Assembly (NCBI RefSeq): GCF_003725695.1
Contig: NZ_RJSE01000007.1
Coordinates: 660,552 to 724,551 of the forward strand
Reading direction: 5' to 3'
Origin: Nocardioides marmoriginsengisoli
Lineage (GTDB): Bacteria > Actinomycetota > Actinomycetes > Propionibacteriales > Nocardioidaceae
Length of the DNA stretch: 64,000 bases
Each line of letters begins with the position of its first letter. Positions within the stretch are counted from its first letter, which is position 1. The translations under genes were made by a program, and so were the position numbers. The notes beneath the pieces were generated by a model. That model ran no database searches. It had not been told where the DNA came from and saw nothing but the letters and a program-made list of their open reading frames with translations. Positions 17,465 through 42,542 of this stretch are shown here, in pieces.

Positions 17465-17517
17465 TTGAATAGGAATTCAAGATCTGAACACTTGCTCAAC
17501 ATATGAATCTATGTTCA
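17465..17517. promoter_or_regulatory. Stacked AT-rich inverted repeats in a divergent promoter
   Basis: TTGAAT-AGGA-ATTCAA (17465-17480) is a perfect 16-bp inverted repeat, and TGAA-TCTATG-TTCA (17504-17517) a second one. A TGAACACTTGCTCA element lies between them. The gap between the TetR gene and the SDR operon is much more AT-rich than its surroundings. Likely operators of the divergent TetR protein. Confidence 0.6.
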
Positions 17518-17573: not shown

Positions 17574-18455
17574 GTGGACCAGCGCGTTGTGCTCATCACC
17601 GGAGCGTCTCGAGGATTCGGCGAGGTCGCCGCCCGGGAACTGGCACGCCGAGGGCACCGGGTCATTGCGTCCATGCGCAAGCCGGAGGTCGACGGCGAGA
17701 AGGTGCGCGCCGGCTACGAGGACCTGATGACGACGGTCAGCCTGGACGTCACCGACCCGGCGGCGGTGAACGCGGTGGTCTCGTCGATCGTCGCCGAGCA
17801 CGGCCGGATCGACGCGGTCGTCAACAACGCCGGCTACGGCCTGTACGGCGCCGTCGAGGACCTCAGCGAGGAGGAGCTGTTCCAGCAGTTCAACACGAAC
17901 TTCATGGGTGAGTGGCGGGTCTGCAAGGCCGTCGTCCCGCACATGCGCGCCGCCGGCGGCGGCACGATCGTCAACGTCAGCTCGCTCGGCGCGCGCTTCG
18001 TGGCTCCGCTCACCGGGATGTACTCGGCGACCAAGGCGGCGATCGAGGCCATGTCCGAGGCGCTGCGCTACGAGGTCGACCGGTTCAACATCAAGGTCAC
18101 CATGCTCGAGCCGGGCATGTACAAGAGCGACTGGGCGACCACCTCGCTCGCGGTGTGCGACGCGCTCAGCGCCGGCACCAGCCCGTACCAGGAGTCGGCC
18201 GAGAAGGCGCTCGACGCCTTCCGGGTGATGGCCGAGACCCGGCCCGGTCCGGAGGCCGTCGGCATGGTGATGGCGGACATGGTCGAGCTCCAGCAGAACC
18301 CGCCGGTGCGGATCCCGATCGGCGAGGACGCGTTCCGGCTGACCATGGCGCGGACCTTCGCCTCCGACGACGCCTGGGAGAAGTCCATGAAGACCGGGCC
18401 GTTCTTCGACGGCGTCGTCGCCCCCGAGGCCGGACCCGGGTTCGCCGGCTACTGA
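17574..18455 (+). CDS. SDR-family oxidoreductase, first gene of the 15-gene run
   Basis: A 293-residue classical SDR. LITGASRGFGE is the nucleotide loop, the Arg/Lys after beta-2 (ASMRKPEV) favours NADP, NNAGYGLYGAVED is near 85, and the catalytic pair is in MYSATKAAIE. Its C-terminal extension (after ~200) is longer than in 250-residue SDRs, as in ketoreductase-type members. GTG 17574 is preferred over ATG 17511 because AGGGAG lies 6 bp upstream and the alternative adds 21 unconserved-looking residues. It is divergent from the TetR gene and starts a co-directional run that continues to 31112. Confidence 0.8.
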   Translation: MDQRVVLITGASRGFGEVAARELARRGHRVIASMRKPEVDGEKVRAGYEDLMTTVSLDVTDPAAVNAVVSSIVAEHGRIDAVVNNAGYGLYGAVEDLSEEELFQQFNTNFMGEWRVCKAVVPHMRAAGGGTIVNVSSLGARFVAPLTGMYSATKAAIEAMSEALRYEVDRFNIKVTMLEPGMYKSDWATTSLAVCDALSAGTSPYQESAEKALDAFRVMAETRPGPEAVGMVMADMVELQQNPPVRIPIGEDAFRLTMARTFASDDAWEKSMKTGPFFDGVVAPEAGPGFAGY

Positions 18456-18504
18456 GCGGCCGCCGTGCAGGTGCCCCCACCCTTCGTCAGATCCGAGGTG
18501 AACG

Positions 18505-19338
18505 ATGAGTGAGTTCGAGAGCAAAGTAGTGATGATCGCGGGAGGCGCCCGCGGCATCGGGCGCGCGATCGCGACGTCGCTGGCCGGAGCCGGAGCGCAG
18601 ATCGTCCTGGTCGACGCGCCGGCCCCGATGCAGACGCTCGGCTACCCGTTGCCGGACGCCGACGCCCTGGAGTCCGCCGTCGCGGAGATCCGGGCCGCCG
18701 GCGGCACCTGCACCGGGTACGAGCTCGACGTCCGCGACCGTCCGCGGGTCGCCGAGACCGTGCAGCGCTGCATCGCCGAGGCGGGACGCATCGACATGCT
18801 CGTCAACTGCGCCGGCGTCGGCAGCGTCTCCGACGCGGGGGAGATGGACGACCTCACCTGGTCGGAGGTCGTCGACACCAACCTGAACGGTTTCTACAAC
18901 CTGGTCCGTGCGGTGACGGCGCACATGACGGCGCGCGGCTCCGGGAACATCGTGGCCGTGGTGGGCGACTCCGCCCGCCGCGGCGCGGCCGGCCTGTCGC
19001 ACGTGAGCGCCGCCGGCTGGGCGACGATCGGGCTGGCCAAGTCGCTCGCCCTGGAGACCGCTGATGCCGGGGTCGCGGTGAACGTCCTCAGCCTCGGCCC
19101 GGTCGACACCGAGCTGTCCTCGTCGGCGGAGTTCCGCTCCGCGGTCGCCGACCTGCGGCACGTCGTACACGGACAGGACGCCATCGAGGCGATGGGCCGG
19201 CGGCACCCGAACTGCGAGCCGTGGGTCCCGATGGAGGACGTCGTCCGCGCGGCGCGGTTCCTCCTCGGCGGCGGTACGTCGATGACCGGGTCGGTGCTGG
19301 ACGTCTCGGCGGGGCTGAGCGCCCTGAACTCGTCATGA
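18505..19338 (+). CDS. Mycofactocin-type SDR with lost catalytic Tyr and Lys
   Basis: A 277-residue SDR. The nucleotide loop GGARGIGRAIA is intact. After beta-2 it carries an insertion DAPAPMQTLGYPLPDADAL, the hallmark of the SDR group tied to the redox cofactor mycofactocin. Where active SDRs have YxxxK it reads HVSAAGW, so both catalytic residues are missing, while the flanking region is well kept. It may be a structural or regulatory partner of the next SDR, or use other chemistry. GAGGTG lies upstream of ATG 18505. The gap to the preceding gene is 49 bp. Confidence 0.75.
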   Translation: MSEFESKVVMIAGGARGIGRAIATSLAGAGAQIVLVDAPAPMQTLGYPLPDADALESAVAEIRAAGGTCTGYELDVRDRPRVAETVQRCIAEAGRIDMLVNCAGVGSVSDAGEMDDLTWSEVVDTNLNGFYNLVRAVTAHMTARGSGNIVAVVGDSARRGAAGLSHVSAAGWATIGLAKSLALETADAGVAVNVLSLGPVDTELSSSAEFRSAVADLRHVVHGQDAIEAMGRRHPNCEPWVPMEDVVRAARFLLGGGTSMTGSVLDVSAGLSALNSS

Positions 19339-19402
19339 CGCCGTACTTCTGCGGAGCGGGCTCCGCTGCGACGTACTCCAGCCAATCCAGTGAGGGGAAG
19401 AG

Positions 19403-20236
19403 ATGACCGAGCCAGTTGACCGGGTGGTGCTCGTCACCGGCGGCGCGAAGGGTCAGGGCCGCAACCACGCCCTCGCCTTCGCGCGCCAGGGTGCACGGGT
19501 CGGCGTGATGGACATCTGCCGCCAGTTCCCGGGTTCCGCGCCGATGGCCACCGAGGAGGACCTGGCGACGACCCAGAAGCTGCTCGGCGAGGCCGGTGCG
19601 GACTCCTTCGCCCTGGTGGGCGACACCCGCAGCAGCGCGGACATGCGCCGGTTCGTCGACACCGCCGTCGAGCGCTGGGGACGCGTCGACGTCTTCGTCG
19701 CCAACGCCGGTGTCGCCAGCTTCGGGCCGGTCGTGGAGATGACCGACCCGATGTGGGACGACGTCGTCTCGACCAACCTGGACGGCGTCGCGACGTCGAT
19801 CCGGGCGGTGATCCCGACGATGGTGGCCCAGCGTTCCGGACGGATCATCGCGACCTCGTCCTCGGTGGCCCGCGAGGGCGGCCCGAACAACGCCAACTAC
19901 GCCGCCTCGAAGTGGGGCGTGATCGGCTTCGTGAAGTCGGTGGCGATCGAGCTGGCGCCGCTGGGGATCACCGTCAACGCGTTCTCGCCGATGTCGGTCT
20001 CCACCGACATGTGCCACAACGAGGCGACCTACAAGCTGTTCCGCCCGGACCTGGCGGATCCGCAGGAGGACGACGTCCGCGAGACCTTCGCCGGGTTGAA
20101 CCCGATGCACGTCCCGTGGCTGGAGCTCGAGGACGCGACGGCGGGGGTGCTCTACCTCGCCTCGGAAGGCGCGCGGTACGTCACCGGCGCCGCTCTCGAC
20201 GTGGCGGGTGGCTGGAATGCCTACCACGGCGCCTAG
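19403..20236 (+). CDS. Mycofactocin-coupled SDR-family oxidoreductase, intact active site
   Basis: A 277-residue SDR. VTGGAKGQGRNHALAFARQGA and DICRQFPGSAPMATEEDLATT match the mycofactocin-associated SDR family, whose NAD is thought not to exchange and is reoxidised through mycofactocin. NANAG-like VANAGVAS and the catalytic NYAASKWGVIG are intact. The NPMHVPWLELEDATAGVLYLAS segment is also characteristic. GGGGAAGAG precedes ATG 19403. Its 3' end overlaps the RidA gene by about 20 bp. No mycofactocin synthesis genes lie in this window, so the cofactor link is family knowledge. Confidence 0.8.
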   Translation: MTEPVDRVVLVTGGAKGQGRNHALAFARQGARVGVMDICRQFPGSAPMATEEDLATTQKLLGEAGADSFALVGDTRSSADMRRFVDTAVERWGRVDVFVANAGVASFGPVVEMTDPMWDDVVSTNLDGVATSIRAVIPTMVAQRSGRIIATSSSVAREGGPNNANYAASKWGVIGFVKSVAIELAPLGITVNAFSPMSVSTDMCHNEATYKLFRPDLADPQEDDVRETFAGLNPMHVPWLELEDATAGVLYLASEGARYVTGAALDVAGGWNAYHGA

Positions 20237-20675
20237 GTCCGACCCGGCCCGCGTGTCGCCGGTGGCGACCGCCGGCCGGGCCGCGATCAGCGACGTGTCG
20301 GGGCTGGCGAGCCTGGGCCAGACCCACGCCGTACGGGTCGGGCGCCAGGTCTTCATCTCGGGCCAGCTCGGCCTCGGCGAGGACGGCCGACTGGTCGGTG
20401 CCGACGACTGCTACGCCCAGTCGGTGCAGTGCTTCCGCAACGTCGAGGCGATCCTGCGGGCGGCCGGCGGGCAGCTGACCGACGTGGTCAAGCTCGTCTG
20501 CTACCTGACCGACCAGGCGAACGCCAAGGCGTACGCCGAGGCCCGCGGCACCTTCCTCGACCAGCTCCCCGCGACCACGGCCGTGGTGGTGCAGGAGCTG
20601 CTCCTTCCCGGCGCGCTGCTCGAGCTCGACGTCACCGCCGTCCTTCCCGATCCCGACCACACCCCTGAATCTTGA
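20217..20675 (+). CDS. RidA/YjgF-family protein (imine/enamine deaminase-like)
   Basis: A ~152-residue RidA-family protein with an N-terminal extension of about 25 residues. The core contains THAVRVGRQVFISGQLGL and QSVQCFRNVEAILRAAGGQLTDVVKLVCYLTD, and the usual Arg/Glu of the trimer interface cleft lie around VVVQELLLPGALLELDVTAVL. RidA proteins hydrolyse reactive imines made by PLP enzymes, which fits the aminotransferase gene 10 bp downstream. ATG 20217 was chosen over GTG 20208; both overlap the upstream SDR gene end. Some RidA relatives in catabolic operons have other hydrolase roles. Confidence 0.8.
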   Translation: MPTTAPRSDPARVSPVATAGRAAISDVSGLASLGQTHAVRVGRQVFISGQLGLGEDGRLVGADDCYAQSVQCFRNVEAILRAAGGQLTDVVKLVCYLTDQANAKAYAEARGTFLDQLPATTAVVVQELLLPGALLELDVTAVLPDPDHTPES

Positions 20676-20685
20676 GAGGCCCTCG

Positions 20686-21906
20686 ATGACCCGCACGATC
20701 GACGATCTCGTCTCCGCCGAAGTCTCCGGCGGACCGCCGATGTTCTTCCCGCAGCCGGAGGAGCCGATCCACTACAACTTCGACCAGGGGAATCCGGCGA
20801 CGGAGACCTTCCCGCTCGACGAGCTGGCCGCCATCGAGGCGGACGTGCGCCGCGAGATCGGCGGACCGAGCTTCGACTACTTCGACGCCGACACCGGCTA
20901 CGAGGAGCTGGTCTACGGCTGGCGCGGCCTGCGCGGCGTCCTCGCCGACCGGTTCGCCGCGCGCGACGGGGTGGAGCTCGACCCGATGAACGTGATCCTG
21001 ACCTCGGGATCGGTGCACGGGATCGCCCTGGTCGCCCGGGCGTTCCTCGACCCGGGCGACGTGGTCCTGGTCGAGGCCGCGACGTTCCCGTACGCCGTCC
21101 GCTTCTTCGAGGCCGCCGGTGCCGAGGTCGTGACCGTCCCCGTCGACTCCGAGGGCATGCGCGTCGACCTGCTGGAGCAGGAGATCGCGAACCTGCGCGC
21201 TGCCGGCCGCCGTCCGAAGCTGATCTACACGATCCCGACGTTCCAGCTGCCGACCGGGACCTGCATGCCGCTGGAGCGGCGTCGCCAGCTGGTCGCGCTC
21301 GCCCAGCGCGAGCGGATCATGGTGCACGAGGACAACGTCTACGCGCAGCTGCGCTACGACGGCGAGTACCTGCCGACGCTCTTCAGCCTCGACGACCAGG
21401 GCATCGTCATCCAGTCGGACAGCTTCAGCAAGACCGTCGCGCCTGCCCTGCGCCTCGGCTGGGTGCTGGGTTCCGAGCAGGCGATCGCGGCGGTGGCGGC
21501 GGTGCGCCAGGACCTCGGCGTGAACCAGTTCCACGCCCGGGTGATGGCCCGGTACACCGAGTCCGGCCAGCTGGACCGGCACATCGAGCAGATCCGGGAG
21601 GTGTACCGCGCCAAGCGGGACACCGCGGTGAAGGCGCTGCGCGAGTACTGCGGCGCGTGGGTCGACTTCGAGGTCCCGCAGGGCTCGTTCTTCCTGTGGC
21701 TGCGGATCTCCGAGCAGGTCGACTGGGAGCTGGCGGCGAAGAAGGTCGCCGAGGAAGGCGTCTTCTGCCGGCCGGGAGAGCGCTTCTCCGGCGACGCCTC
21801 CGGGCAGCGCTACCTGCGGATGGCGTACAGCAACGTCTCCACCGACATCATCGCCCAGGGTGTCGAAGCCCTCGGCCGCGCTCTCGACGCAGGCGCCCGA
21901 CGCTGA
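20686..21906 (+). CDS. PLP-dependent aminotransferase, class I/II (2-aminoadipate/MocR-like)
   Basis: A 406-residue fold-type I PLP enzyme. YNFDQGNPATETFP at the start, the cofactor Asp/Tyr region MVHEDNVYAQLRYDGE, and the Schiff-base Lys in SDSFSKTVAPALRLGW are visible, plus the carboxylate-binding Arg in GQRYLRMAYSNVS. This resembles 2-aminoadipate aminotransferase and the catalytic half of MocR proteins, without the DNA-binding domain. It would transaminate an amino acid or oxo acid in the pathway; the partner RidA is directly upstream. GAGAGGCCC precedes ATG 20686. Its stop shares a base with the next ATG. Confidence 0.85.
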   Translation: MTRTIDDLVSAEVSGGPPMFFPQPEEPIHYNFDQGNPATETFPLDELAAIEADVRREIGGPSFDYFDADTGYEELVYGWRGLRGVLADRFAARDGVELDPMNVILTSGSVHGIALVARAFLDPGDVVLVEAATFPYAVRFFEAAGAEVVTVPVDSEGMRVDLLEQEIANLRAAGRRPKLIYTIPTFQLPTGTCMPLERRRQLVALAQRERIMVHEDNVYAQLRYDGEYLPTLFSLDDQGIVIQSDSFSKTVAPALRLGWVLGSEQAIAAVAAVRQDLGVNQFHARVMARYTESGQLDRHIEQIREVYRAKRDTAVKALREYCGAWVDFEVPQGSFFLWLRISEQVDWELAAKKVAEEGVFCRPGERFSGDASGQRYLRMAYSNVSTDIIAQGVEALGRALDAGARR

Positions 21907-22871
21907 TGCCGACCGCGAAGAGCAGCGCCACCGGGCGCCCGGACCTGGACCTCGAGACCGAGGTCCGGGTCGAGGGGCTGCTCTTCCCGGAAGGCCCGGT
22001 CGTGCTCCCGTCCGGGGACCTGGTGGTCTGCGAGCTGGCCGGACGGCGGGTCACCCGGATCGATGCCCGGGGCGGCAAGCGCACGCTGGCGACCTTCGCG
22101 GGCTCGCCCAACGGTCAGGTGGTGGCCCCGGACGGGTCGCTCTGGGTCTGCGACAACGGCGGCCGCTGGGTCGCCGAGTCGGCGGCGGACCTTCGTGAGG
22201 GTCCGGGGGACCAGCCGGGCCTGCTCTGGCGGCTCACCCTGGACGGCGACCTGGCGCCGCTGCTGACCGAGATCGACGGCCGGCCGCTGACCTCTCCCAA
22301 CGACCTCTGCCTGGACGGCGACGGCGGCCTCTGGTTCACCGACCCGGTCTGGCCGGACGCCGACGGCCAGGTGTCCGCCGGGAAGATCGGCTACCGCGCC
22401 GCCGACGGTCGCGCGCACTACGAGCACGAGGGCCTGCGCTTCCCGAACGGTCTCGCCGTCACCGCGGCGGGTGACGCCCTGATCGTGGCCGAGTCGTACA
22501 CCTCCTGGCTGCACCGCTTCCCGATCCTCGGCCCGGGCCGGCTGGGTCAGCCGGAGCCGTTCGCGTTCCTCGGCGAGGGCACCCTGCCCGACGGGCTCTG
22601 CTTCGACTCCGCCGGGCGGGTGATCGTCGCGGGCGCCGGCACCGGGTGCGTCGTGGTGTTCACCGCGGACGGCGAGGACCTCGGCCGGATCCCGTTCGGC
22701 AACGACGTCACCAACGTCTGCTTCGGCGGCAGCGACCTGCGCACGCTCTTCGTCACCGAGGTGGGGCTGGGACGGGTCAGCACGGTCCGCTGGGACGTGC
22801 CCGGGCTGCCGATGCCCTACCAGCTGGGTTGGGCACCGCGGGACGCGGAGGCGGTGAGCACCGATGCCTAG
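21906..22871 (+). CDS. SMP-30/gluconolactonase/LRE-family lactonase-like protein
   Basis: A 321-residue six-bladed beta-propeller protein of the SMP-30 family, probably a calcium- or zinc-dependent lactonase. The metal-site pattern is present: Glu in LLFPEGPVV near 30, Asn/Asp in TSPNDLCLDGDGGLWFTDP near 130, Asn in LRFPNGLAV near 180 and Asp in LPDGLCFDSAGRVIVA near 225. It would open a lactone formed by ring oxidation. ATG 21906 overlaps the aminotransferase stop (TGATG); the larger frame upstream is inside that gene. The end overlaps the next gene by 8 bp. Confidence 0.82.
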   Translation: MPTAKSSATGRPDLDLETEVRVEGLLFPEGPVVLPSGDLVVCELAGRRVTRIDARGGKRTLATFAGSPNGQVVAPDGSLWVCDNGGRWVAESAADLREGPGDQPGLLWRLTLDGDLAPLLTEIDGRPLTSPNDLCLDGDGGLWFTDPVWPDADGQVSAGKIGYRAADGRAHYEHEGLRFPNGLAVTAAGDALIVAESYTSWLHRFPILGPGRLGQPEPFAFLGEGTLPDGLCFDSAGRVIVAGAGTGCVVVFTADGEDLGRIPFGNDVTNVCFGGSDLRTLFVTEVGLGRVSTVRWDVPGLPMPYQLGWAPRDAEAVSTDA

Positions 22872-23457
22872 GATCCAGCCGGTCGCCGACGAGCTCCTGG
22901 ACCGGAACCATGCCGACCTGCTCGCCACCATCCGCGGCGCGTACGGTTCCGAGCCGTCCAGCTTCGCGCTGCTCGCGCACGTCCCCGGACTGCTCGAGGC
23001 CGTCGGCGACCTCAGCGAGGCGGTGATGGGACCGGGACGGATCGACGCCGGCCTGAAGTGGATGGTCGCCCACGTGGCCAGTCTCTCCGCGGGCTGCCAG
23101 TACTGCTCGGCGCACACCGGCTACCACGCCGCCCACGCCGCCGGCGTCCGCGAGGAGAAGGTCGCCGCGCTCTGGGACTTCGCGACCGATCCGCTGTTCT
23201 CGCGCGCCGAACGGGCCGCGCTGAACCTGGCGCTGGGCGCGGCGCACAGCCCCAACGCCACCACCGACGCCGACTTCGACGAGCTGCGCGCCTCCTTCAC
23301 CGACGGCCAGATCGCCGAGCAGGTGGCGGTGGTCGCGCTCTTCGGCCTCTTCAACCGCTGGAACGACACCTTGAAGCCCGAGCTGGAGGACGCGCCCCTC
23401 CGGTTCGCGGAGCAGACCGGGGCGTACGCGGGGCGCAACGAAGGGAGATCGCGATGA
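22864..23457 (+). CDS. Carboxymuconolactone decarboxylase/AhpD-like protein
   Basis: A 197-residue alpha-helical protein of the CMD/AhpD superfamily. The redox motif CQYCSAHTGYHAAHAAG (about residues 79-95) has the CxxC and downstream His typical of AhpD-type proteins, which act as thiol peroxidase partners; other members are decarboxylases. The second half (AERAALNLALGAAHSPNATT, EQVAVVALFGLFNRWNDTL) is also characteristic. It overlaps the lactonase gene by 8 bp and its stop overlaps the next ATG, so it is tightly coupled. The CxxC suggests a thiol-redox role, notable beside the Cys-rich UGSC-type protein. Confidence 0.82.
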   Translation: MPRIQPVADELLDRNHADLLATIRGAYGSEPSSFALLAHVPGLLEAVGDLSEAVMGPGRIDAGLKWMVAHVASLSAGCQYCSAHTGYHAAHAAGVREEKVAALWDFATDPLFSRAERAALNLALGAAHSPNATTDADFDELRASFTDGQIAEQVAVVALFGLFNRWNDTLKPELEDAPLRFAEQTGAYAGRNEGRSR

Positions 23458-24563
23458 GGACGACGATGACGATCGCGGCTGACGACCTGCAGTCGCACTT
23501 CTACGACCAGGGCTGGACCGACGGGCTGCCGATCGTCGCGCCGACCGCCGCCGCGGTCGAAGCGATGCTGGCCGGAGGCGGGGTCGCCGCCGACGAGGTG
23601 CTCGGCGCGATCCCCGCGCACGGCGTGACGATGGACGCCGAGCACGCGGCCACCGCGGCCGTGATGGCCGGGTGCGTCCCGGAGTACTTCCCGATCGTGC
23701 TGGCCGCGGTCGGAGCGACGCTCGATCCGCTGTTCAACCTGCAGGTCGCCTGCACCAGCACCGGTGGTCCGGCGCTCTGCACGATCGTCAGCGGTCCGCT
23801 GGCCGCGGAGCTCGCGATGAATGCCGAGCACAACGCGCTCGCCTCGGGCAACCGGGCGAACGCGACCATCGGCCGAGCGGTCAGGTTCGCCGCGGTCAAC
23901 CTGCTGCGGACCCAGGTCGACGGGACCGACGGGTCGTCGATCGGCAACCCCGGCAAGTACACCTTCTGCTTCGCCGAGCGTCCGGTGACCGGGTGGTCGT
24001 CGCTGCGCGAGGACCTCGGGTACGCCGAGGAGGACACCACCGTGACGGTCGCGCCGACGACCGGACCGATCCAGGTCGGAAACCACCTCACCGCGGAGCC
24101 GGACGCGATCGCCGCGAGCCTGGCGGCGGCGATGCGGATGCCGTCGCTGTTCACCACCGGCAAAGGTGGCGCGCAGTTCGTGATCGCGCTCGGGGTCGAG
24201 CACGAGGCGGCGTTCCGCGACAACGGCTGGACCCGGGCGGACCTGCGGGCTCGGCTGCGCGAGGGCAGCCGGATCCGGGTCGACGAGCTCCGGGCGGCGG
24301 GCATCGTGATCGAGGAGGGCACCCACCACGACATGAGCGCGGACGCGGACGGCTACCTCCGGACGGTCGCGGCCGACGCCGACATCCACGTGGTCTCCGC
24401 GGGCGGTGCCGGGGCCGGCTGGTCCGCGGTGATCCCGTCCTGGGCGCCCCGGCAGCACGCCCAGATCGCCACCCGCCGGGTGCGGGTCAAGGGCGAGGAG
24501 CTGCCCGACTGCGGCCCGGATTCCTGTGCGATCGACCCGACGGCGATGGAGGGACGGCTATGA
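23454..24563 (+). CDS. Uncharacterised protein paired with the UGSC-type protein
   Basis: A 369-residue protein that I do not recognise as an enzyme of known function. It begins with the phrase FYDQGWTDGLPIVAPTAAAVEAML, which I have seen in uncharacterised actinobacterial proteins next to UGSC-family proteins. It has several conserved-looking Gly/Ser/Thr-rich loops (CTSTGGPAL, TGKGGAQFV) and a C-terminal CGPDSC pair. There is no signal peptide and no clear membrane segment. Both ends overlap neighbours (ATGA), and the next gene is the small Cys protein, so the two are probably subunits of one activity. Function open. Confidence 0.7.
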   Translation: MRTTMTIAADDLQSHFYDQGWTDGLPIVAPTAAAVEAMLAGGGVAADEVLGAIPAHGVTMDAEHAATAAVMAGCVPEYFPIVLAAVGATLDPLFNLQVACTSTGGPALCTIVSGPLAAELAMNAEHNALASGNRANATIGRAVRFAAVNLLRTQVDGTDGSSIGNPGKYTFCFAERPVTGWSSLREDLGYAEEDTTVTVAPTTGPIQVGNHLTAEPDAIAASLAAAMRMPSLFTTGKGGAQFVIALGVEHEAAFRDNGWTRADLRARLREGSRIRVDELRAAGIVIEEGTHHDMSADADGYLRTVAADADIHVVSAGGAGAGWSAVIPSWAPRQHAQIATRRVRVKGEELPDCGPDSCAIDPTAMEGRL

Positions 24564-25096
24564 GCGAGCTGACGGTACTGAGCCCGGTCGCCGAGCAACC
24601 GGACGACGAGGCACGTGCCGAGCTCGCGCCCCGCGGGGAGCTCGCCGGCCTGCGCCTGACCGTGATCGAGAACGGGAAGCCGCGGGCGCACGAGCTCCTC
24701 GGCGCGCTCGCCGCCGGGCTGAAGGAGCGGCACGGGTTGGCCGCGGTCACGATCTTCTCCAAGCCGGGCGCGTCCCAGCCCGTCAGCGACGAGACCGTCC
24801 AGGAGCTGGCGGCCGGCGGCGACGTCTTCCTCACCGGCCTCGGCGACTGCGGCGGGTGCTCGGCGTGCAGCCTGCAGGACGCGCTGCTGATGGAGCGCGC
24901 CGGTCGCCCGGCCACGGTGCTGATCTCGGATCCCTTCCAGGGCCGGATCGCGTCGTACGCCGCCAAGCTCGGTGCTCCGGGCTACGGAGTCGTGGTCGCG
25001 CCGCACCCGGTCGCCACCCGGTCGGCGGAGTTCCTCGCCGACCTGGCCGAGCAGCTCGTCGACGGCGTCGCCCGCAACCTCGGCAGGCTGCCATGA
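24560..25096 (+). CDS. UGSC-family protein (cysteine form)
   Basis: A 178-residue protein whose centre reads TGLGDCGGCSACSLQD, with Cys97, Cys100 and Cys103. This is like the U/C-G-S/G-C motif of the UGSC family, in which the first position is selenocysteine in some members; here it is a normal TGC codon. The segment VIENGKPRAHELLGAL and FSKPGASQPVSDETVQELA also fit that family. The CxxCxxC arrangement suggests thiol-redox or metal binding. It is translationally coupled to the 369-residue partner upstream and the alcohol dehydrogenase downstream (ATGA overlaps). No biochemical role is established to my knowledge. Confidence 0.72.
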   Translation: MSELTVLSPVAEQPDDEARAELAPRGELAGLRLTVIENGKPRAHELLGALAAGLKERHGLAAVTIFSKPGASQPVSDETVQELAAGGDVFLTGLGDCGGCSACSLQDALLMERAGRPATVLISDPFQGRIASYAAKLGAPGYGVVVAPHPVATRSAEFLADLAEQLVDGVARNLGRLP

Positions 25097-26202
25097 GCCC
25101 GTCCGAGCAGGTGCGCGCCGCGGTCCTCACCGGCCCCGGTGCGATCGAGCTCCAGACCTTCCCCCGGCCGCCGACGGATGCCGACTCGGCGCTGCTCCTG
25201 GTCGAGGCGAACGGCATCTGCGGCACCGACGTGCACTTCCGCGGCGACGGGGCCGACGTCCCGCGCATCCTCGGGCACGAGGTCGTCGGCCGCATCCTCG
25301 AGATCGGCGACCTCGCCCGCGAGCGCTGGGGCGTCGAGGCGGGGGACCGGGTCGCGGTCGAGGCCGGGATCGCCTGCGGGACCTGCCGCTCCTGCCTGGA
25401 TGGCTTCGCCCAGACCTGCGCCGCCCGGCTCGGTTACGGGTCCAACGTCACCACCGACGTCGCCCCCGCCCTCTGGGGCGGCCTGAGCGAGCTGATGCAC
25501 CTGGCCCCCGGGTCGGTGCTGACCAAGGTCGACGACGCAGTCGGTGCCGACGTCGCCGCCGGCTGGTTCAGCCCGCTGGCCAACGCGGTCGACTGGACCG
25601 GCGAGACCGGGGGCAGCGTCCAGCCGGGTCAGACCGTGCTGGTCCTCGGCCCCGGTCCCCAGGGGCTGGCGATCTGCCTCGCCGCGAAGGCTCGCGGAGC
25701 CGGGCAGGTGATCCTGGTCGGTCTTGCCCGTGACCGGCACCGCCTGGACGCCGGCACCAGCCTCGGTGCCGACGTGGTCGTCGAGGCCGACGTCGAGTCG
25801 GTGCTCGAGGTCGTCGCCGCCCGGACGAACGGTGCGATGGCCGACGTGGTGCTCGACGTGTCGGGCAACCGGGAGAGCGCGCGCACGGCGGCCCTCGCGG
25901 TGCGTCCGCGCGGGACGATCGTGGCGGCCAGCCCGATCAACACCACCGACGACGTGGGCCTGCCGCTGCGCGACCTGATCTGGAAGCAGGTGCGCTGGCA
26001 GGGCGTCCTGTCCAACCGTCCGAGCGCGGCCCCGGCGGCCGCCGTACTCCTGGCGGCGCACGCCGAGCAGCTGGCGCCGCTGGTCACGCACCGCTTCGAC
26101 CTTGCCGCCGCCGATCAGGCGATCGACGTCGTCGCCGGAGTCGACCCCGCAGCCGCGGCGATCAAGGTCGTCGTCTGTCCGAACGGAGTTCCGTCGTCAT
26201 GA
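25093..26202 (+). CDS. Zinc-dependent alcohol dehydrogenase (MDR superfamily)
   Basis: A 369-residue medium-chain dehydrogenase. The catalytic zinc ligands are Cys in NGICGTDVHF and His-Glu in ILGHEVVGR; the structural zinc is held by four Cys in CGTCRSCLDGFAQTC. The NAD-binding loop is VLGPGPQGLAICLAAKARG. It resembles threonine/sorbitol dehydrogenase-type enzymes and would oxidise a secondary alcohol or polyol-like intermediate. ATG 25093 overlaps the UGSC stop; the longer upstream frame is within that gene. Its stop overlaps the EthD gene start (ATGA). Confidence 0.87.
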   Translation: MSPSEQVRAAVLTGPGAIELQTFPRPPTDADSALLLVEANGICGTDVHFRGDGADVPRILGHEVVGRILEIGDLARERWGVEAGDRVAVEAGIACGTCRSCLDGFAQTCAARLGYGSNVTTDVAPALWGGLSELMHLAPGSVLTKVDDAVGADVAAGWFSPLANAVDWTGETGGSVQPGQTVLVLGPGPQGLAICLAAKARGAGQVILVGLARDRHRLDAGTSLGADVVVEADVESVLEVVAARTNGAMADVVLDVSGNRESARTAALAVRPRGTIVAASPINTTDDVGLPLRDLIWKQVRWQGVLSNRPSAAPAAAVLLAAHAEQLAPLVTHRFDLAAADQAIDVVAGVDPAAAAIKVVVCPNGVPSS

Positions 26203-26621
26203 TCAAGATGAGATTCGGGTGGCGCGACCGCCCCGGCATGACCGCCGAGGAGTGCGAGGCGCACTACCGGAGCGTGCACATGGAGCTGGCCCGCGCCGGG
26301 TTCGACGGCGTCGACGGCTTCATCGCGGTCGCGTACGAGCGGGTGCGCAGTGCTGCCGTCAACGACTTCAACCGCCCGGAGCGGCGCGAGGTCGTCCCGG
26401 ACTTCGACGCCTTCTGCGAGCTGTACTTCCGCGACGCCACGAGCATGCAGGCGGCGTTCGCGCGGCCGCAGCTGGCGGCGATGTTCGAGGACCACGTCAA
26501 CTTCATGGACACCGAGATCGAGTCCAACGTCCGGATCTACGAGGTCGAGGAGACCGTCTTCTTCGGCGCCCGCCCGGACCCCACGTCGTCCGCAAGTCAG
26601 TCTGAGAGGACAGTTCCGTGA
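26199..26621 (+). CDS. EthD-domain protein
   Basis: A 140-residue ferredoxin-like dimeric alpha-beta barrel protein of the EthD type. It opens with FGWRDRPGMTAEECEAHYRSVHMELARA, the typical W/R-x-GM-T-x-EEF-x-x-HYxxxHxxL pattern, and has a second half around FDAFCELYFRDATSMQAAFA. EthD proteins accompany oxidative degradation of ethers, aromatics and polyketide-like compounds, often as small decarboxylases or isomerases, but the role of most is unknown. It is coupled to the dehydrogenase before it and the permease after it (GTGA). Confidence 0.78.
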   Translation: MIKMRFGWRDRPGMTAEECEAHYRSVHMELARAGFDGVDGFIAVAYERVRSAAVNDFNRPERREVVPDFDAFCELYFRDATSMQAAFARPQLAAMFEDHVNFMDTEIESNVRIYEVEETVFFGARPDPTSSASQSERTVP

Positions 26622-27460
26622 GCACCAAGACCGTCTCCGCACTCACCGACGGCGCGTCGAAGCGCTCGGGGCGTTCGAGCCGATCGGTTCAACGCCTGCA
26701 GAGCGCGGCGGTGACCACCGTCGCGGTCACGATCGTCGGCGTCCTGCTGGTGATGAGCTGGCAGTGGACCTACGACCGCGAGCTGATGTCGAACATCGTG
26801 CTGCCCTCGCCGATGCAGACCTGGGACGCGTTCCGGGCCGGCGTCCTGGAGTCGGACCTCTACTGGCCGCACATCTGGGCGACCACCTTGGCGACGCTGA
26901 TCGCGGTGGCGATCGGCCTCGGCATCGGGGTCGCGGCCGGGGCCCTGTTCGCGTTCGTGCCGCTGGCCCGGCGGACGCTGTACCCGTTCGTGCTGATCGG
27001 GCTGTCGTTCCCGAAGATCGCGGTCGCGCCGCTCTTCGTGCTCTGGTTCGGCTACGGCATGTCCTCGAAGGTCGCGGTCGGCGCCTCGATCGCGTTCTTC
27101 CCGGTGCTGGCCAACACGGCGGCCGGCCTGCGCGAGGTCAACCGCGACGAGATCGAGCTCTTCGAGTCCAACCGGGCGACGGTCTGGCAGCAGTTCCGGC
27201 TGCTGCGGGTGCCGCGGGCGCTGGCCTTCATCCTCCCGTCGCTGGACCTGGCGATCGTCGGGGCGCTGCTCGGCGTGATCGCGGGCGAGTTCGTCGCGTC
27301 CGGCGAGGGCCTCGGCTTCCTGGTCCTCCAGTTCTCCCAGATGGGCGATGCCCCGGGAGTCTTCGCGGCCCTGTTCTGCATGGCGATCATCGGCCTGCTG
27401 ATGAAGGCGCTCGCGGTCGCCCTCGTCCAGCTCGGTCCCAAAAATGTCACACCCAACTGA
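26618..27460 (+). CDS. ABC transporter permease, SsuC/TauC-like
   Basis: A 280-residue inner-membrane permease with about six helices, of the nitrate/sulfonate/taurine importer class. The cytoplasmic EAA-like loop is around FESNRATVWQQFRLLRVPRALAFILPSLD, and FPKIAVAPLFVLWFG is characteristic of SsuC-type permeases. A basic 30-residue N-terminus precedes the first helix (VTTVAVTIVGVLLVMSW). It is the first of the three transporter genes; the binding protein and the ATPase follow. In this family the substrates are sulfonates, taurine, nitrate, pyrimidine precursors, or aromatic acids, so the substrate cannot be named. GTG 26618 overlaps the EthD stop. Confidence 0.88.
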   Translation: MSTKTVSALTDGASKRSGRSSRSVQRLQSAAVTTVAVTIVGVLLVMSWQWTYDRELMSNIVLPSPMQTWDAFRAGVLESDLYWPHIWATTLATLIAVAIGLGIGVAAGALFAFVPLARRTLYPFVLIGLSFPKIAVAPLFVLWFGYGMSSKVAVGASIAFFPVLANTAAGLREVNRDEIELFESNRATVWQQFRLLRVPRALAFILPSLDLAIVGALLGVIAGEFVASGEGLGFLVLQFSQMGDAPGVFAALFCMAIIGLLMKALAVALVQLGPKNVTPN

Positions 27461-27500
27461 CTTCCCGGGGAGTCACGGCAACACCTGCGAAAGGAAAAGT

Positions 27501-28595
27501 ATGTTCAAGAAGAAGATGTACGTAGCGGGCCTGGTTGTAGGGCTCCTCGTCACGACCGCCGCGTGCGGGGGTGACGACGAGAAGGGCGCGGACGGCAAGT
27601 CGCTCACGAAGATCGTCCAGGTCAACGCTGACCCGGGCCTCGGCGCGACGACCGCGTTCCACTCCTCGGTCCCCGAGAAGCTCGGGTACTTCAAGGAAGA
27701 GGGCCTCTCGGTCGAGACCCGCGGTGTGCAGGGTGCTGACGCCGCTGCCGCCATGGTGCAGTCCGGTCAGGCGGACATCGTCCAGGCCGGCGGCCCCGCG
27801 ATGGTGCAGTTCGCCGGTGACAAGGACGACAGCCTGGTGGCCGTCTACCTGAACAAGTCGCACTCGTTCCGGTTCGTCGTACCCGAGGACAGCGACATCA
27901 AGACCGCCGCCGACCTCAAGGGCGCCACCATCGGCGTGCTCGCGATGGCCGGTCCGATGATCCAGTACGGCAAGGCCGTCGTCAGCCAGGGCGGGCTCGA
28001 CCCGGAGAAGGACGTCAAGTTCCTGCCGGTGGGCCTCGGCACCCAGGCCGCGGCCGCGTTCGAGAAGGGCCAGATCCAGGCGTACGCCGGTGCCGACTCG
28101 TTCAACTCGGTGATCGGCCAGCTGACCGGTCAGACGATGCGGGTGATCTCGGTCCCCTCGGACACCCTGCCGGCGTTCGGCGGCTGGCTGGTGCGCCGCG
28201 AGATGATCGAGAAGAACCCCGAGGCGATCATCGGCTTCATCAGGGCGACCCTGAAGGGCCTGACGTTCGCGAACGCCAACCCCGAGGCCGCGGTGAAGAT
28301 CCACTGGGAGCGCTACCCGACGTCCAAGGCGGCTGACGGTGACAAGCCCGAGGTCCTCGCGCAGTGGGCAGCCACGATCAAGGAGCGGATCGACCTGGCC
28401 TACCTCGGCAAGGGCCCCGACGGCTTCTACGGTACGGCGGACGAGAAGGACCTGGCCGGGTCGCTGCAGTTCCAGGTCGACGCGGGGATCCTCCCGAAGA
28501 TGCCGGACCTGAAGCAGCTGGTCGACCTTGAGTTCGCCAAGCAGTACAACGACTTCGACGAGAGCGGACCGCTCGACTCGGCGAAGAACTACTGA
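27501..28595 (+). CDS. ABC transporter substrate-binding lipoprotein, SsuA/NMT1-like
   Basis: A 364-residue binding protein anchored as a lipoprotein: MFKKKMYVAGLVVGLLVTTAAC gives a basic start, hydrophobic core and lipobox Cys22. The mature part has the NMT1/SsuA pattern: KLGYFKEEGLSVETRGVQGADAAAAMVQSGQADI and the ADLKGATIGVLAMAGP segment. AAAGGAAAAG lies just before ATG 27501; the 19 codons before it in frame are an intergenic shadow. It belongs with the permease before it and the ATPase after it. The ligand is unknown; the neighbouring enzymes suggest an organic acid. Confidence 0.87.
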   Translation: MFKKKMYVAGLVVGLLVTTAACGGDDEKGADGKSLTKIVQVNADPGLGATTAFHSSVPEKLGYFKEEGLSVETRGVQGADAAAAMVQSGQADIVQAGGPAMVQFAGDKDDSLVAVYLNKSHSFRFVVPEDSDIKTAADLKGATIGVLAMAGPMIQYGKAVVSQGGLDPEKDVKFLPVGLGTQAAAAFEKGQIQAYAGADSFNSVIGQLTGQTMRVISVPSDTLPAFGGWLVRREMIEKNPEAIIGFIRATLKGLTFANANPEAAVKIHWERYPTSKAADGDKPEVLAQWAATIKERIDLAYLGKGPDGFYGTADEKDLAGSLQFQVDAGILPKMPDLKQLVDLEFAKQYNDFDESGPLDSAKNY

Positions 28596-28614
28596 GACAA
28601 GAGGATCCAGAGAA

Positions 28615-29445
28615 ATGACGACAGCCACAGTCGCTCGGGCCAGCATCAGCGTTCGGGGCGTGAGCAAGAGCTTCGAGATTCCGCGGGAAGCACCCTTCCT
28701 GGCCTTGAAGGAGGCATCGATCGAGGTCGAGCCGGGCGAGTTCCTCGCGCTGGTCGGCCCGAGCGGCTGTGGCAAGTCGACCCTGCTCCGGATGATCGCC
28801 GGTCTGCTGAAGCCGACCGAGGGCGAGATCTGGGTCGGGGACCGGCAGATCACCAGGCCGCAGGAGGACTTCAGCATCGTCTTCCAGAGTCCGCGGCTGC
28901 TGCCGTGGAAGACGGTCCTGGAGAACGTGATGCTTCCGCTCGCACTCGGGCGCGGCAAGAAGGTGCCCAAGGCGGAGGCCAAGGCGCGCGCCCAGGAGCT
29001 GCTCGAGCTGGTCCAGCTCGAGGGCTTCGGGGGACGCTTCCCCTCCGAGCTCTCCGGCGGCATGCAGCAGCGGGTCTCGATCGCCCGCTCGCTGGTCAAC
29101 TCGGCGAACGTGCTGCTGATGGACGAACCGTTCGGAGCGCTCGACGCGTTCACCCGCGAACGGCTGAACGAGGAGCTGCTCCGGATCTGGTCCGCGACCG
29201 GCAGGACGATCATCTTCGTCACCCACGACATGGACGAGGCCGTCTTCCTCGCCGACCGGGTGGCCGTGATGGGCAAGGAACCGGGCCGGATCGTCGACGT
29301 CGTCGACATCCCGCTGGCCCGGCCCCGCAACGCGGAGTCGCGTACCTCCGAGGAGTTCTTCGGGTCGGTACGGCGGCTGCGCCAGACCTTGTCCACGGGA
29401 GTCGGCGTGGATGCCGGCGGAGCGGGCGCGCACCGCGCCGAGTGA
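28615..29445 (+). CDS. ABC transporter ATP-binding protein, SsuB/TauB-like
   Basis: A 276-residue ATPase of the nitrate/sulfonate class. Walker A GPSGCGKST is near 49-57, the Q-loop FQSPRLLPWKTVLENV near 95, the signature LSGGMQQRVSIAR near 145, Walker B VLLMDEPFGALD near 165 and the H-loop FVTHDMDEAVFLADR near 200. It would power the importer encoded by the two preceding genes. ATG 28615 follows the binding-protein stop by 19 bp with a GAGGA upstream. The C-terminal 20 residues are low-complexity. Confidence 0.9.
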   Translation: MTTATVARASISVRGVSKSFEIPREAPFLALKEASIEVEPGEFLALVGPSGCGKSTLLRMIAGLLKPTEGEIWVGDRQITRPQEDFSIVFQSPRLLPWKTVLENVMLPLALGRGKKVPKAEAKARAQELLELVQLEGFGGRFPSELSGGMQQRVSIARSLVNSANVLLMDEPFGALDAFTRERLNEELLRIWSATGRTIIFVTHDMDEAVFLADRVAVMGKEPGRIVDVVDIPLARPRNAESRTSEEFFGSVRRLRQTLSTGVGVDAGGAGAHRAE

Positions 29446-29477
29446 CCTCGGCCGGCCGGTCGCGGAGAGGGTGAGCC

Positions 29478-31112
29478 ATGCAGCCCACGCAACGCCTGCG
29501 GGACGCGATGTCCCGGGTGCCCGTCTGGGAGTCGCTGGACCAGGCGATCCGGAGCCATGCCGCGACCCGGCCCGACGACTGGGCGTACATCGAACCGGCC
29601 GGACGGCTCAGCTGGGCGGCGTACGACGGCTACGTCACGCTGATCGCCGCGGCCCTGGTGGACGCCGGCATCGAGCCGGGCGAACGGGTCGCCCTCTGGA
29701 TCCCGGACGGCGTCCTGGTGCACGCCGCGCTGTCGGCCGCCCTGCGCGCGGGCGTGGTCGCGGTCGGGATCGGCGCTCGTTCCGGTGAGCGCGAGGTCCG
29801 GCACCTGCTGTCCCGGACGGAGGCGACGACGCTGCTCACGGTGCCGTCGATCGGGCAGGTCGGGACCCGGGAGGTCTTCGACCGAGTCGCCGCGGACCTG
29901 CCGCGGCTGACCCGCTACCTCGACCTTCCGGGCATCGTGCCCGCGCCCGTCGGCGAGGTGCGCTCGGCAGGGGACCGGGACGCGCTGGCCGGGGCGGAGC
30001 AGCGGATCGCGGGTCGTCGCCGGCCGGTGGACGCGCTGTCGATCATCAACTCCACCTCGGGGACGACCGGGCTGCCGAAGTGCGTGGCGCACGACGAGCG
30101 TCGCTGGCTGATGTACCACGAGTACTCGGTGGACTGCGGCGACCTCAGCACCGAGGACGTCTGCCTCAGCGTGGTGCCGGCACCGTTCGGGTTCGGCCTC
30201 TGGACGGCGCACTTCACGCCGACGCTGCTCGGGGCGCCGACGGTGGTGCTTCCGAGGTTCGACCCGCGGGCCACCCTCCAACTGCTCCAGGACGAGCGGG
30301 TCACGGTGTTCATGGCGGTGTCGACCCAGTTCGTGATGATGCTCGGCCAGCCGGACTTCGACGACTACGACCTCTCCGCGCTCCGGGTGATGTTCACCGG
30401 AGGCGAGGCAGTGCCGCGGCACAAGGCCGAGGAGTTCGAGCGCCGAACCGGGGCCGTCATCCTCAACATGTACGGCTCGAACGAGAGCGGCGTGCTGAGC
30501 TACACCACCACCGACGACCCGCCCGAGCGCCGGCACACGACCGCGGGCCGGTTGATCCCGGAGGTGGAGGTGCGGTTGTTCGACGCCGACCGGAACGAGA
30601 TCGACTTCGGGTCCGGGCCCGGGCAGCCGGGCCTGATCGGGACGGTCCGCTCGCGCGGCTACTACCAGGACGACGAGGCGAACCGCGCCCTGTACACCGA
30701 GGACGGCTGGATGCTGATGGGGGACCTCGTCACCATCGACGCCGAGGGCTACCTCCAGGTGGTCGGTCGGACCTCGGACTTCATCATCCGCGGCGGCAAG
30801 AACATCAGCGCACCGGCGGTCGAGGAGCTCGTCAGCGAGGTCCCGGGGGTGCTTCGGGCGGCGGCGGTCGCCGTACCGGACGAGGTGTTCGGCGAGCGGG
30901 TGTGCGTCTACGTGATCCCGGCCGGTGCGCCGGTCACCCTCGACGCCGTACGCCGGCACCTCGCCGACCAGGGTGTGAGCAAGGAGTGGCTGCCCGAGTA
31001 CCTGGTGCTCGTCGAGGAGCTGCCGGTCTCCGAGGGCGGCAAGCTCGCCAAGGGCGCCCTGCGCGCCGATGCCCGGCGCCGGCGGGACGACGGCGAGCTG
31101 GTGCTCTCCTGA
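29478..31112 (+). CDS. Acyl-CoA synthetase (AMP-forming), last gene of the 15-gene run
   Basis: A 544-residue adenylate-forming ligase. The P-loop STSGTTGLPKCVAHD is near 193, YGSNESGVLSY near 333, GDLVTIDAEGYLQVVGRTSDFIIRGGKNISAPAVEE near 415-450, and the catalytic Lys in EGGKLAKGALRAD at ~525. It should activate the imported acid or a pathway intermediate to a CoA ester, with the transporter genes directly upstream. It ends 8 bp from the convergent TetR gene at 31121. GGTGAG lies just before ATG 29478. The sequence around NESG differs from typical fatty acid ligases, so an aromatic or cyclic acid is possible. Confidence 0.87.
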   Translation: MQPTQRLRDAMSRVPVWESLDQAIRSHAATRPDDWAYIEPAGRLSWAAYDGYVTLIAAALVDAGIEPGERVALWIPDGVLVHAALSAALRAGVVAVGIGARSGEREVRHLLSRTEATTLLTVPSIGQVGTREVFDRVAADLPRLTRYLDLPGIVPAPVGEVRSAGDRDALAGAEQRIAGRRRPVDALSIINSTSGTTGLPKCVAHDERRWLMYHEYSVDCGDLSTEDVCLSVVPAPFGFGLWTAHFTPTLLGAPTVVLPRFDPRATLQLLQDERVTVFMAVSTQFVMMLGQPDFDDYDLSALRVMFTGGEAVPRHKAEEFERRTGAVILNMYGSNESGVLSYTTTDDPPERRHTTAGRLIPEVEVRLFDADRNEIDFGSGPGQPGLIGTVRSRGYYQDDEANRALYTEDGWMLMGDLVTIDAEGYLQVVGRTSDFIIRGGKNISAPAVEELVSEVPGVLRAAAVAVPDEVFGERVCVYVIPAGAPVTLDAVRRHLADQGVSKEWLPEYLVLVEELPVSEGGKLAKGALRADARRRRDDGELVLS

Positions 31113-31120
31113 GCCCTCGC

Positions 31121-31771
31121 TCAGGCAGCGCCGACGCCGAGGAGGCGCATCGCCCACTCCCCGTAGTGGAACACCAGACCGTCCTCGCCGGTCGACCTGT
31201 CCTCCTCGTACCAGGCGGCGACACCGATGCCCATGTCGATCAGCGCGCAGGAGGCGAGGTGGACGGACGCGACGTTGAACTCACCGGCGTCGACCCCTTC
31301 CCGGATCAGCTCCCGGAACCGCCGCTCGTAGCTCGAGCTGCGTTCGAGCACCTCGGCCAGCGCTTCGGGGTCCAGGCTGCGCGTCTCCCGGGTCCCGATG
31401 AACGCCTCGTACTTGTGCCGCGCGTGGAAGCGGACGTGCGCCTCGAACGCCCGGCGCAGCCGGATCGTCGGCGACTGGCTCGACCGGATCGCCTCGTCGA
31501 AACCCTCGGTGAGCGAGTCCAGCGTCCGGACGATGATCTCGCGCAGCAGCTGGTTCTTCGAGCCGACGTGGTTGTAGATGCTCGGTGCCCGGATCCCCAG
31601 CTCGTCGGCGATGTGGGCCATCGTCGTCGCCTGGTAGCCGTTGGTCGCGAACAGCCGGAGCGCGACGGCACGGATCTCGTCGGTCCGATCGGCGCCCCGC
31701 GGGGCGGCCTTCGCGCCGACCGAACCGCGTCCGCTCATCGGTCCGGGAATGCGCTCTGTCTCTGAGTTCAC
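31121..31771 (-). CDS. TetR/AcrR-family regulator, divergent from the ligase/LIV operon
   Basis: A 216-residue regulator. The HTH (about 28-76) contains LRLFATNGYQATTMAHIADELGIRAPSIYNHVGSKNQLL. The C-terminal domain has the KstR/FadR-like style with an FHARHKYEAFIGTRETRSL segment. The gene is divergent from the acyl-CoA ligase at 31923, and the gap carries two similar palindromes, one perfect. This strongly suggests autoregulation and control of that operon, probably relieved by an acyl-CoA. GTG 31771 is the first start; ATG 31738 is an alternative that would drop 11 residues. Confidence 0.83.
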   Translation of the reverse strand: MNSETERIPGPMSGRGSVGAKAAPRGADRTDEIRAVALRLFATNGYQATTMAHIADELGIRAPSIYNHVGSKNQLLREIIVRTLDSLTEGFDEAIRSSQSPTIRLRRAFEAHVRFHARHKYEAFIGTRETRSLDPEALAEVLERSSSYERRFRELIREGVDAGEFNVASVHLASCALIDMGIGVAAWYEEDRSTGEDGLVFHYGEWAMRLLGVGAA

Positions 31772-36250: not shown

Positions 36251-36262
36251 CCCTGCTGCCGA

Positions 36263-36292
36263 CGACAGGGGCGGCCCTCGCCGCCCCTGTCG
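36263..36292 (+). terminator. Intra-operon hairpin after the binding-protein gene
   Basis: A perfect 13-bp stem (CGACAGGGGCGGC pairing with 36280-36292) has a 4-base loop CCTC. It lies between the binding-protein stop and the permease start. It probably acts as a partial terminator or a 3'-end stabiliser rather than a full operon end, since the permeases follow at once. Confidence 0.7.
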
Positions 36293-36323
36293 CCGACACC
36301 CCTTCCCCACGAACGGAGGACCT

Positions 36324-39382: not shown

Positions 39383-39392
39383 AAGGAATCAG

Positions 39393-42454: not shown

Positions 42455-42476
42455 CGCTTTCACCTCTGCTACTTTG

Positions 42477-42515
42477 TCTCTGAAACCGAGTGAATCACAT
42501 TCAGAGAGACTCGGT
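42477..42515. promoter_or_regulatory. Two interleaved inverted repeats, MarR operator candidates
   Basis: TCTCTGAA (42477-42484) pairs with TTCAGAGA (42500-42507), and ACCGAGT (42485-42491) pairs with ACTCGGT (42509-42515). The centres are 8 bp apart. A short GTGAATCAC palindrome is inside. All arms are perfect. The region is the middle of the marR/monooxygenase gap. Confidence 0.75.
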
Positions 42516-42542
42516 CGATCTCGTCAATCGTAGGAGGTAAAG

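Follow-up and report, generated by a model that had tools for sequence, protein, structure and literature searches.

What is the function of the run of 15 genes at positions 17574-31112 of the stretch studied here, and do these genes belong to one pathway? The window, i.e. the whole stretch of 64,000 nucleotides from Nocardioides marmoriginsengisoli, has a G+C content of about 71% and comes from a genome of 4.46 Mb over 16 contigs. According to the gene calls on the window, 15 plus-strand genes fill 17574-31112 and are flanked by two TetR genes, which bears out the co-directional run of the original prediction. Overall, our analysis shows that the conserved core of the run is two genes, one encoding a member of the selenoprotein family UGSC, here with cysteine in place of selenocysteine (Sec), and the other its uncatalogued partner of 365 amino acids, called BIG below. 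As for the whole run, we put at close to an even chance that it is a single inducible and lineage-specific catabolic operon, with BIG-UGSC as its distinctive step, in the form of a thioredoxin-coupled two-subunit reductase in its cysteine version.

BIG and UGSC form the conserved core of the run

BIG relatives are present at no fewer than 520 places in a one-genome-per-species collection, and are also carried on plasmids of Alpha-, Beta- and Gammaproteobacteria, Actinomycetota, haloarchaea and Sporomusa. Searches detect BIG in 28 of 396 genomes of the phylum and in 3 of 196 of the order, and UGSC above the Pfam cut-off in 27 of the 396, all of them among the 28 with BIG. Both searches of the phylum ask for the same 396 genomes, with coinciding genome handles, and score few candidates per genome (five for BIG, eight for UGSC), so that single misses are possible. 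The only genome with BIG but without UGSC is G378, and two others (G391, G465) lack BIG and match UGSC at a score below the cut-off. The two genes are mostly adjacent as well. A hidden Markov model census of 118 BIG loci, which are a non-random set (80 of the at least 520 relatives, 20 + 10 around genome-search matches and 8 hand-picked plasmid loci), places UGSC within 2.5 kb of BIG in 111, on the same strand in 110 of these; BIG comes first in 100 of the paired loci, UGSC in 10, and the remaining one has the two on opposite strands. Among the seven loci outside this rule, L145 and L147 carry UGSC-BIG fusions in which the Sec/Cys has been lost, L097 lies close to the end of its contig, in L086 UGSC is found at a distance of about 5 kb from BIG, and in the genome of L039 (G331) a weak UGSC match directly precedes BIG, leaving L027 and L128 as the loci of this census without any UGSC. 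In the two fusions (L145:9362-11047 in Vibrio europaeus, L147:9320-11044 in Sporomusa termitida) DMGTS replaces the Sec/Cys site; aconitase X and DUF126 genes are found close to both. The host genome itself has a second copy, one fused UGSC-BIG protein of 540 amino acids in the Cys form (P0002; L046:8782-10404, on contig C2 near 230 kb), which adjoins an IclR-type regulator, an ABC ATPase and permease, an ATP-grasp acyl-CoA synthetase and a CaiB-type CoA-transferase.

Does the rest of the run travel with the pair? Around BIG relatives, tblastn on 20 loci of 20 kb finds BIG and UGSC together in 18, and for the other 13 genes of the run best matches only for the ABC ATPase (L046-L048) and the CoA ligase (L059, 27%). 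At the four loci with the closest BIG relatives (L042-L045; 52-56% identity over the aligned part), BIG and UGSC are the only run genes matched. A phmmer comparison of the operon proteins with open reading frames of at least 120 amino acids, taken up to 8 kb from BIG in 108 loci, yields no match within 4 kb for the aminotransferase, AhpD, EthD, lactonase or RidA, and SDR matches are equally frequent near to and far from BIG (16 and 16). The Ssu-type permease is common to the run, L046 and L143, and general SDRs are shared too. Within the class, EthD has no match in the 215 other genomes (1 of 216, the host's own), and for AhpD the matches listed from other genomes show 24-39% identity. Plasmid records, searched with four operon proteins and with the whole run, give only scattered homologues below 60% identity or short DNA matches. 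Since the genes beyond BIG-UGSC are hardly matched in loci, class genomes or plasmids, the 15-gene operon is either lineage-specific or has its relatives outside these samples. The search for the same gene set elsewhere, which had been suggested as a check, thus returns the pair and not the whole 15-gene pathway. Likewise, no characterised pathway with this gene set was found, no literature search having been aimed at the set itself. One further family recurs, a beta-propeller with NHL repeats (Pfam) in eight loci with BIG-UGSC (e.g. L086:8090-9100), in seven of the eight within 4 kb; by phmmer it is not a relative of the SMP-30 gene upstream of BIG in the window, and it may play a similar part.

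The original prediction had singled out a UGSC pair, and this is indeed the informative part of the run, although neither its distribution nor its likely mechanism was anticipated there. The window's UGSC belongs to PF24696 (158.5 bits, cut-off 25) and stays below the equivalog cut-off of NF041046 (115 against 125 bits). It shares with the family the D-U/C-G-x-C site and the invariant Lys, Asp and His-Pro, and differs in having Cys for Sec: the in-frame TGA at the U is absent from the window and a Cys codon stands there. The alignment of UGSC (A3) takes the window protein and 46 of 79 rows, and all 47 aligned proteins retain U or C, the second Cys, and the Lys, Asp and His-Pro. Among the 111 paired loci the nucleophile is Sec, by an in-frame TGA, in 96, Cys in 14 and unclear in one; UAG is read as a stop in this count and a few genes may be missed, because Sec-UAG is reported in UGSC of some Actinomycetota in the available text of PMC5330540. 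The group to which the window belongs in the BIG tree also contains G014 (Cys) and L062, G452, G357 and G441 (Sec), with support 97/89. The Cys label, assigned by hand to 11 rows, needs nine changes on this tree, at least eight of them on starred branches, which shows that Sec and Cys have been exchanged repeatedly in the family. The host genome has no SelB above the family cut-off (best 208 against 242 bits), which fits the Cys form of the window's UGSC. The PDB hits of UGSC are all weak and concern unrelated proteins (best E values 0.28 and 0.13).

UGSC itself is a published selenoprotein family. The available text of the 2008 GOS paper (PMC2398784) calls its fold likely Trx-like, ranks UGSC, with 255 genes, as one of the commonest selenoprotein families in aquatic metagenomes, and describes a fusion to a domain 'Unknown_1', which may be BIG; the available part of PMC9402790 gives it 8.2% of the selenoprotein genes in aquatic metagenomes. 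No function is stated in the open-access literature on the family, in the parts available (including PMC1794560), subscription papers being outside this scope.

For BIG, there is no Pfam or NCBIfam match, only single weak hits among 75 relatives, and no sequence relative in the PDB at E 1. In the alignment of BIG (A2; the window protein and 74 of 93 coordinates) Cys70 is nearly invariant. The window protein ends in PDCGPDSCAIDPTAMEGRL, and 21 of 103 different BIG proteins, the window's included, have Cys-x(2-5)-Cys among their 25 C-terminal residues, compared with 20 of 1269 inner 25-residue windows. Such dithiol tails appear in several separate subfamilies (PDCGPDxC, GVCIDC, DCSDGACRL). Class I ribonucleotide reductase has a C-terminal dithiol tail, and we propose by analogy that the tail of BIG might act as a similar shuttle arm; the likeness is a short Cys-x(n)-Cys at the very C-terminus, and no homology is claimed. 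BIG was also considered as a selenoprotein, which was rejected, as the TGA counted inside its matches is BIG's own stop read through into the following sequence.

Likeness to glycine and proline reductases and a possible thioredoxin link

The Sec/Cys region of UGSC remotely resembles the Sec region of protein B of glycine and D-proline reductase (GrdB, PrdB; PF07355), and this likeness is what is new here. Compared with a GrdB/PrdB-like profile, UGSC gives 89.7% in hhalign with a score of 50.1 and Sec placed on Sec, against at most 20.6 and 1.5% for 60 column-shuffled profiles (a lenient control), 0.27% for the reversed profile and 0.15% for GrdE as negative control. By eye, the strand, U-G-T-x, helix and LERAGIPT of GrdB correspond to the strand, U-G-S-C, helix and LE-x-x-G-x-P of UGSC. 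Alignment A5 holds 19 of 34 GrdB/PrdB-like loci (L150-158, L171-181, L185-198), leaving out 13 with the wrong strand or frame or a partial piece and two by choice (L152, L157), with L182-184 unused; alignment A4 holds eight of L150-158, without L152. There are also differences, as BIG-UGSC is found in CoA-type catabolic loci of many lineages and BIG is unrelated by profile to the pyruvoyl-type partner GrdE/PrdA (PF09338). BIG was rejected as a homologue of GrdE or GrdB (0.16% against GrdE), and the host genome has neither a PF07355 nor a PF09338 match. From these profiles, BIG would be a partner different from GrdE and GrdB, or one too diverged for profile tools. In the phylum, PF07355 matches occur in 52 of 246 sampled genomes (including L150-L158 and L171-L198). 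Full-length GrdB is present in 11 of them, the same 11 that have GrdE (PF09338), and in most of the others the match is confined to the C-terminal part, with an in-frame TGA (U-P-x-C) in several cases, and a PF09338 partner is absent.

Neighbouring genes suggest coupling to thioredoxin. Of 108 loci, 10 carry a TrxB-like gene (CxxCD motif) in the orientation of BIG and no more than 2.1 kb from it; the hosts are Actinomycetota, Chloroflexota, Pseudomonadota and one haloarchaeon, and three of the ten genes are annotated as thioredoxin-disulfide reductase. Three of the loci (L142-L144) are hand-picked plasmid loci that also served as tblastn queries. No member of this cluster lies at 4-8 kb from BIG, a control of about 0.69 Mb compared with 0.81 Mb near BIG; at L146 a further trxB is found 9.5 kb away on the other strand. 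The order trxB, trxA, BIG, UGSC is seen in L047, of the same genus as the window, and on an Arthrobacter plasmid (L143). Upstream of the four genes, the latter has an Ssu-type importer, a CocE-type hydrolase and a phosphosulfolactate synthase-like gene, and relatives of this hydrolase and synthase, plus ABC ATPases, are near the pair in L047.

Layout of the run

The features of the run and of its two flanks, in order, are as follows.

16718-17413, minus strand: divergent TetR-family regulator (PF00440, 47.9 bits)
17574-18455, plus strand: SDR 1, GTG start, TGASRGFG cofactor motif (PF00106, scan from 17673)
18505-19338, plus strand: SDR 2, nearest to mycofactocin-coupled SDRs (PF00106; TIGR03971 194.5 bits, cut-off 300)
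19403-20236, plus strand: SDR 3, near-threshold mycofactocin-coupled SDR (TIGR03971 289.5 bits, cut-off 300)
20253-20675, plus strand: RidA-type imine/enamine deaminase (PF01042)
20686-21906, plus strand: pyridoxal-phosphate aminotransferase class I/II, MocR/MppQ-like without helix-turn-helix (PF00155; best NCBIfam matches below cut-off)
21906-22871, plus strand: SMP-30/gluconolactonase-type propeller (PF08450, 134.9 bits)
22864-23457, plus strand: CMD/AhpD-like protein with CQYCSAH motif read in translation (PF02627)
23466-24563, plus strand: BIG, UGSC partner, with conserved AGC (C70) and C-terminal PDCGPDSC tail (alignments, co-occurrence)
24560-25096, plus strand: UGSC protein, cysteine form, D-CGGCSAC (PF24696)
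25093-26202, plus strand: Zn-dependent medium-chain dehydrogenase (PF08240, PF00107)
26199-26621, plus strand: EthD-domain protein (PF07110; TIGR02118 37.2 bits, cut-off 30.5)
26618-27460, plus strand: ABC importer permease, SsuC/TauC type (PF00528)
27501-28595, plus strand: NMT1/SsuA-type substrate-binding protein (PF09084; TIGR01728 77.4 bits, cut-off 163.5)
28615-29445, plus strand: ABC importer ATPase (PF00005)
29478-31112, plus strand: AMP-forming acid-CoA ligase (PF00501, 202.6 bits)
31121-31738, minus strand: second TetR, closing the run (PF00440, PF17932; orientation from gene calls)

Pfam agrees with the families originally named for the SDRs, RidA, aminotransferase, lactonase, AhpD-like protein, Zn-dehydrogenase, EthD, importer and CoA ligase, and the first gene does begin with GTG at 17574 and encode TGASRGFG. 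The description of the starts as mostly overlapping is too strong, as 6 of the 14 junctions overlap (-1, -8, -4, -4, -4 and -4) and the others have gaps of 8-64 bp, including 49, 64 and 40 bp; no junction gap exceeds 64 bp, and 4-bp overlaps chain the two neighbours of UGSC on to the permease gene. Between 16600 and 32000, terminator-like sites are not above chance (4 seen, 3.6 expected) and promoter-like sites are none (0.4 expected), and for this reason the 15 genes are likely one transcript. The divergent TetR stands as predicted, to which the second, minus-strand TetR at the other end is to be added; the latter probably serves the next unit (31983-41881). In the 160-bp spacer before 17574, the short inverted repeats TTGAAT/ATTCAA and TGAACA/TGTTCA (17465-17517) could be a putative operator. 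The three importer genes are of the SsuABC/TauABC kind in having a permease, an NMT1-type binding protein and an ATPase, and differ from it in falling below the curated cut-offs, with the substrate not assignable. In addition, the host genome has the radical SAM protein MftC (655 bits in a profile search).

Proposed role, alternatives and neighbouring units

For the operon, the following course may be proposed from the gene families, whereas the order of the steps and the substrate are guesses. A small organic compound would be imported by the NMT1/Ssu-type importer, oxidised by the SDRs (one of them near the mycofactocin-coupled class) and the Zn-dehydrogenase, relieved of nitrogen by the aminotransferase and RidA through transamination and imine hydrolysis, subjected to lactone opening by the SMP-30 lactonase, and activated as an acid by the CoA ligase. 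In the distinctive step, electrons would pass from thioredoxin and thioredoxin reductase (or AhpD) to the C-terminal dithiol of BIG and on to the U/C-x-x-C site of UGSC, whose selenolate or thiolate would attack the substrate held by BIG and UGSC and, in the manner of protein B of glycine or proline reductase, reductively cleave a carbon-heteroatom bond. A possible local electron donor is the CQYC-containing AhpD-like protein, encoded directly upstream of BIG. CoA-transferase, CoA ligase and acyl-CoA dehydrogenase genes lie near BIG-UGSC in unrelated hosts, and because of these an organic acid is, weakly, the likeliest kind of substrate. A wider proposal, possible and on balance doubtful, is that BIG-UGSC represents an undescribed class of two-subunit, Sec- or Cys-dependent and thioredoxin-driven reductases that cleave carbon-heteroatom bonds in organic acids, a cousin of GrdB/PrdB with an unrelated partner, occurring in Chloroflexota, Pseudomonadota, Actinomycetota and haloarchaea in many catabolic operons, with the run of the window as a Cys example. 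This gives a common selenoprotein family a testable role, with a near-constant partner named, a Sec site near that of GrdB/PrdB and a link to TrxB; the Cys version of the window is moreover an easy protein to make, because no Sec machinery is needed.

Several results weigh against such a reductase. A remote relationship between the Sec/Cys regions of UGSC and GrdB/PrdB is supported but not certain, because smaller sets give lower values (55% for the first set of eight PrdB-like proteins and 41% for GrdB alone). The homology rests on profile comparison over about 96 columns, judged by the lenient shuffling above, since the GrdB model PF07355 matches none of the 47 UGSC proteins at E 0.1, and BIG resembles neither GrdE nor GrdB by profile (0.2-0.3%). 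As for the electron path, the final 25 residues contain no CxnC in 82 of the 103 BIG proteins, roughly one in ten of the loci has TrxB close to the pair (6 of 100 when the eight plasmid loci are set aside), and no TrxB or Trx gene is present in the window's run. The CoA link is weak and may only reflect a catabolic neighbourhood, because CoA-transferases occur in 10 loci within 4 kb and in 8 at 4-8 kb. The other 13 genes of the operon point to no unique chemistry. Finally, the Vibrio and Sporomusa fusions show that not all members can use a redox site; since these homologues have neither Sec nor Cys, the fold can serve without one.

The same fusions favour another view, in which BIG-UGSC is a non-redox lyase, isomerase or hydrolase whose Sec or Cys acts as nucleophile or base, a reductase only keeping the thiol reduced; the invariant Lys, Asp and His-Pro of UGSC and the nearly invariant Cys70 of BIG could then do acid-base catalysis. 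We consider this unlikely, given the invariance of U/C and of the second Cys in the aligned UGSC proteins and the dithiol tails on BIG. Besides, an exchange between Sec and Cys is typical of redox or strong-nucleophile sites.

It is similarly improbable that the pair is a thiol peroxidase or detoxification module, shielding the pathway from peroxides or electrophiles instead of taking a catabolic step. The AhpD-like gene directly upstream of BIG, the thioredoxin reductase neighbours and the likely Trx-like fold given for UGSC in the available text of PMC2398784 would suit this view. However, in distant hosts the pair has importers, CoA-transferases, CoA ligases and acyl-CoA dehydrogenases as neighbours, its profile likeness is to the reductase subunit GrdB/PrdB, and the large conserved partner is not readily explained by a peroxidase.

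Nor do we give much probability to a chance assembly of small unrelated co-directional units, BIG-UGSC being one of them. Almost none of the remaining genes accompanies the pair elsewhere, EthD and AhpD are without close relatives in the sampled class, and there could be promoters in the gaps of 49, 64 and 40 bp; on the other side, no gap is longer than 64 bp, the genes from the neighbours of UGSC to the permease are joined by 4-bp overlaps, and one TetR gene stands at each end. With respect to the undescribed degradation system proposed originally, a catabolic operon with importer and CoA activation is a fair description, while a coherent 15-gene system is without comparative support. Membership in the selenocysteine-assisted organometal (SAO) system, brought up by matches of the importer genes to the SaoP, SaoX and SaoA NCBIfam models and by the Sec/Cys sites of both systems, was rejected as very improbable, with scores far below the cut-offs (80/295, 34/300 and 236/360 bits), similar or better scores with taurine, sulfonate or nitrate importer models, and no MerB-like gene among the families of the run.

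Downstream, the next unit (31983-41881) includes a CoA ligase, a branched-chain-type binding protein, two permeases, a polyketide-cyclase-like protein, an enoyl-CoA hydratase and a thiamine-pyrophosphate enzyme, as well as two ABC ATPases read from translation only and a weak MaoC-like protein. It is followed at 41978-45244 by a MarR regulator divergent from a FAD-binding monooxygenase-type protein, and then by a multicopper oxidase.

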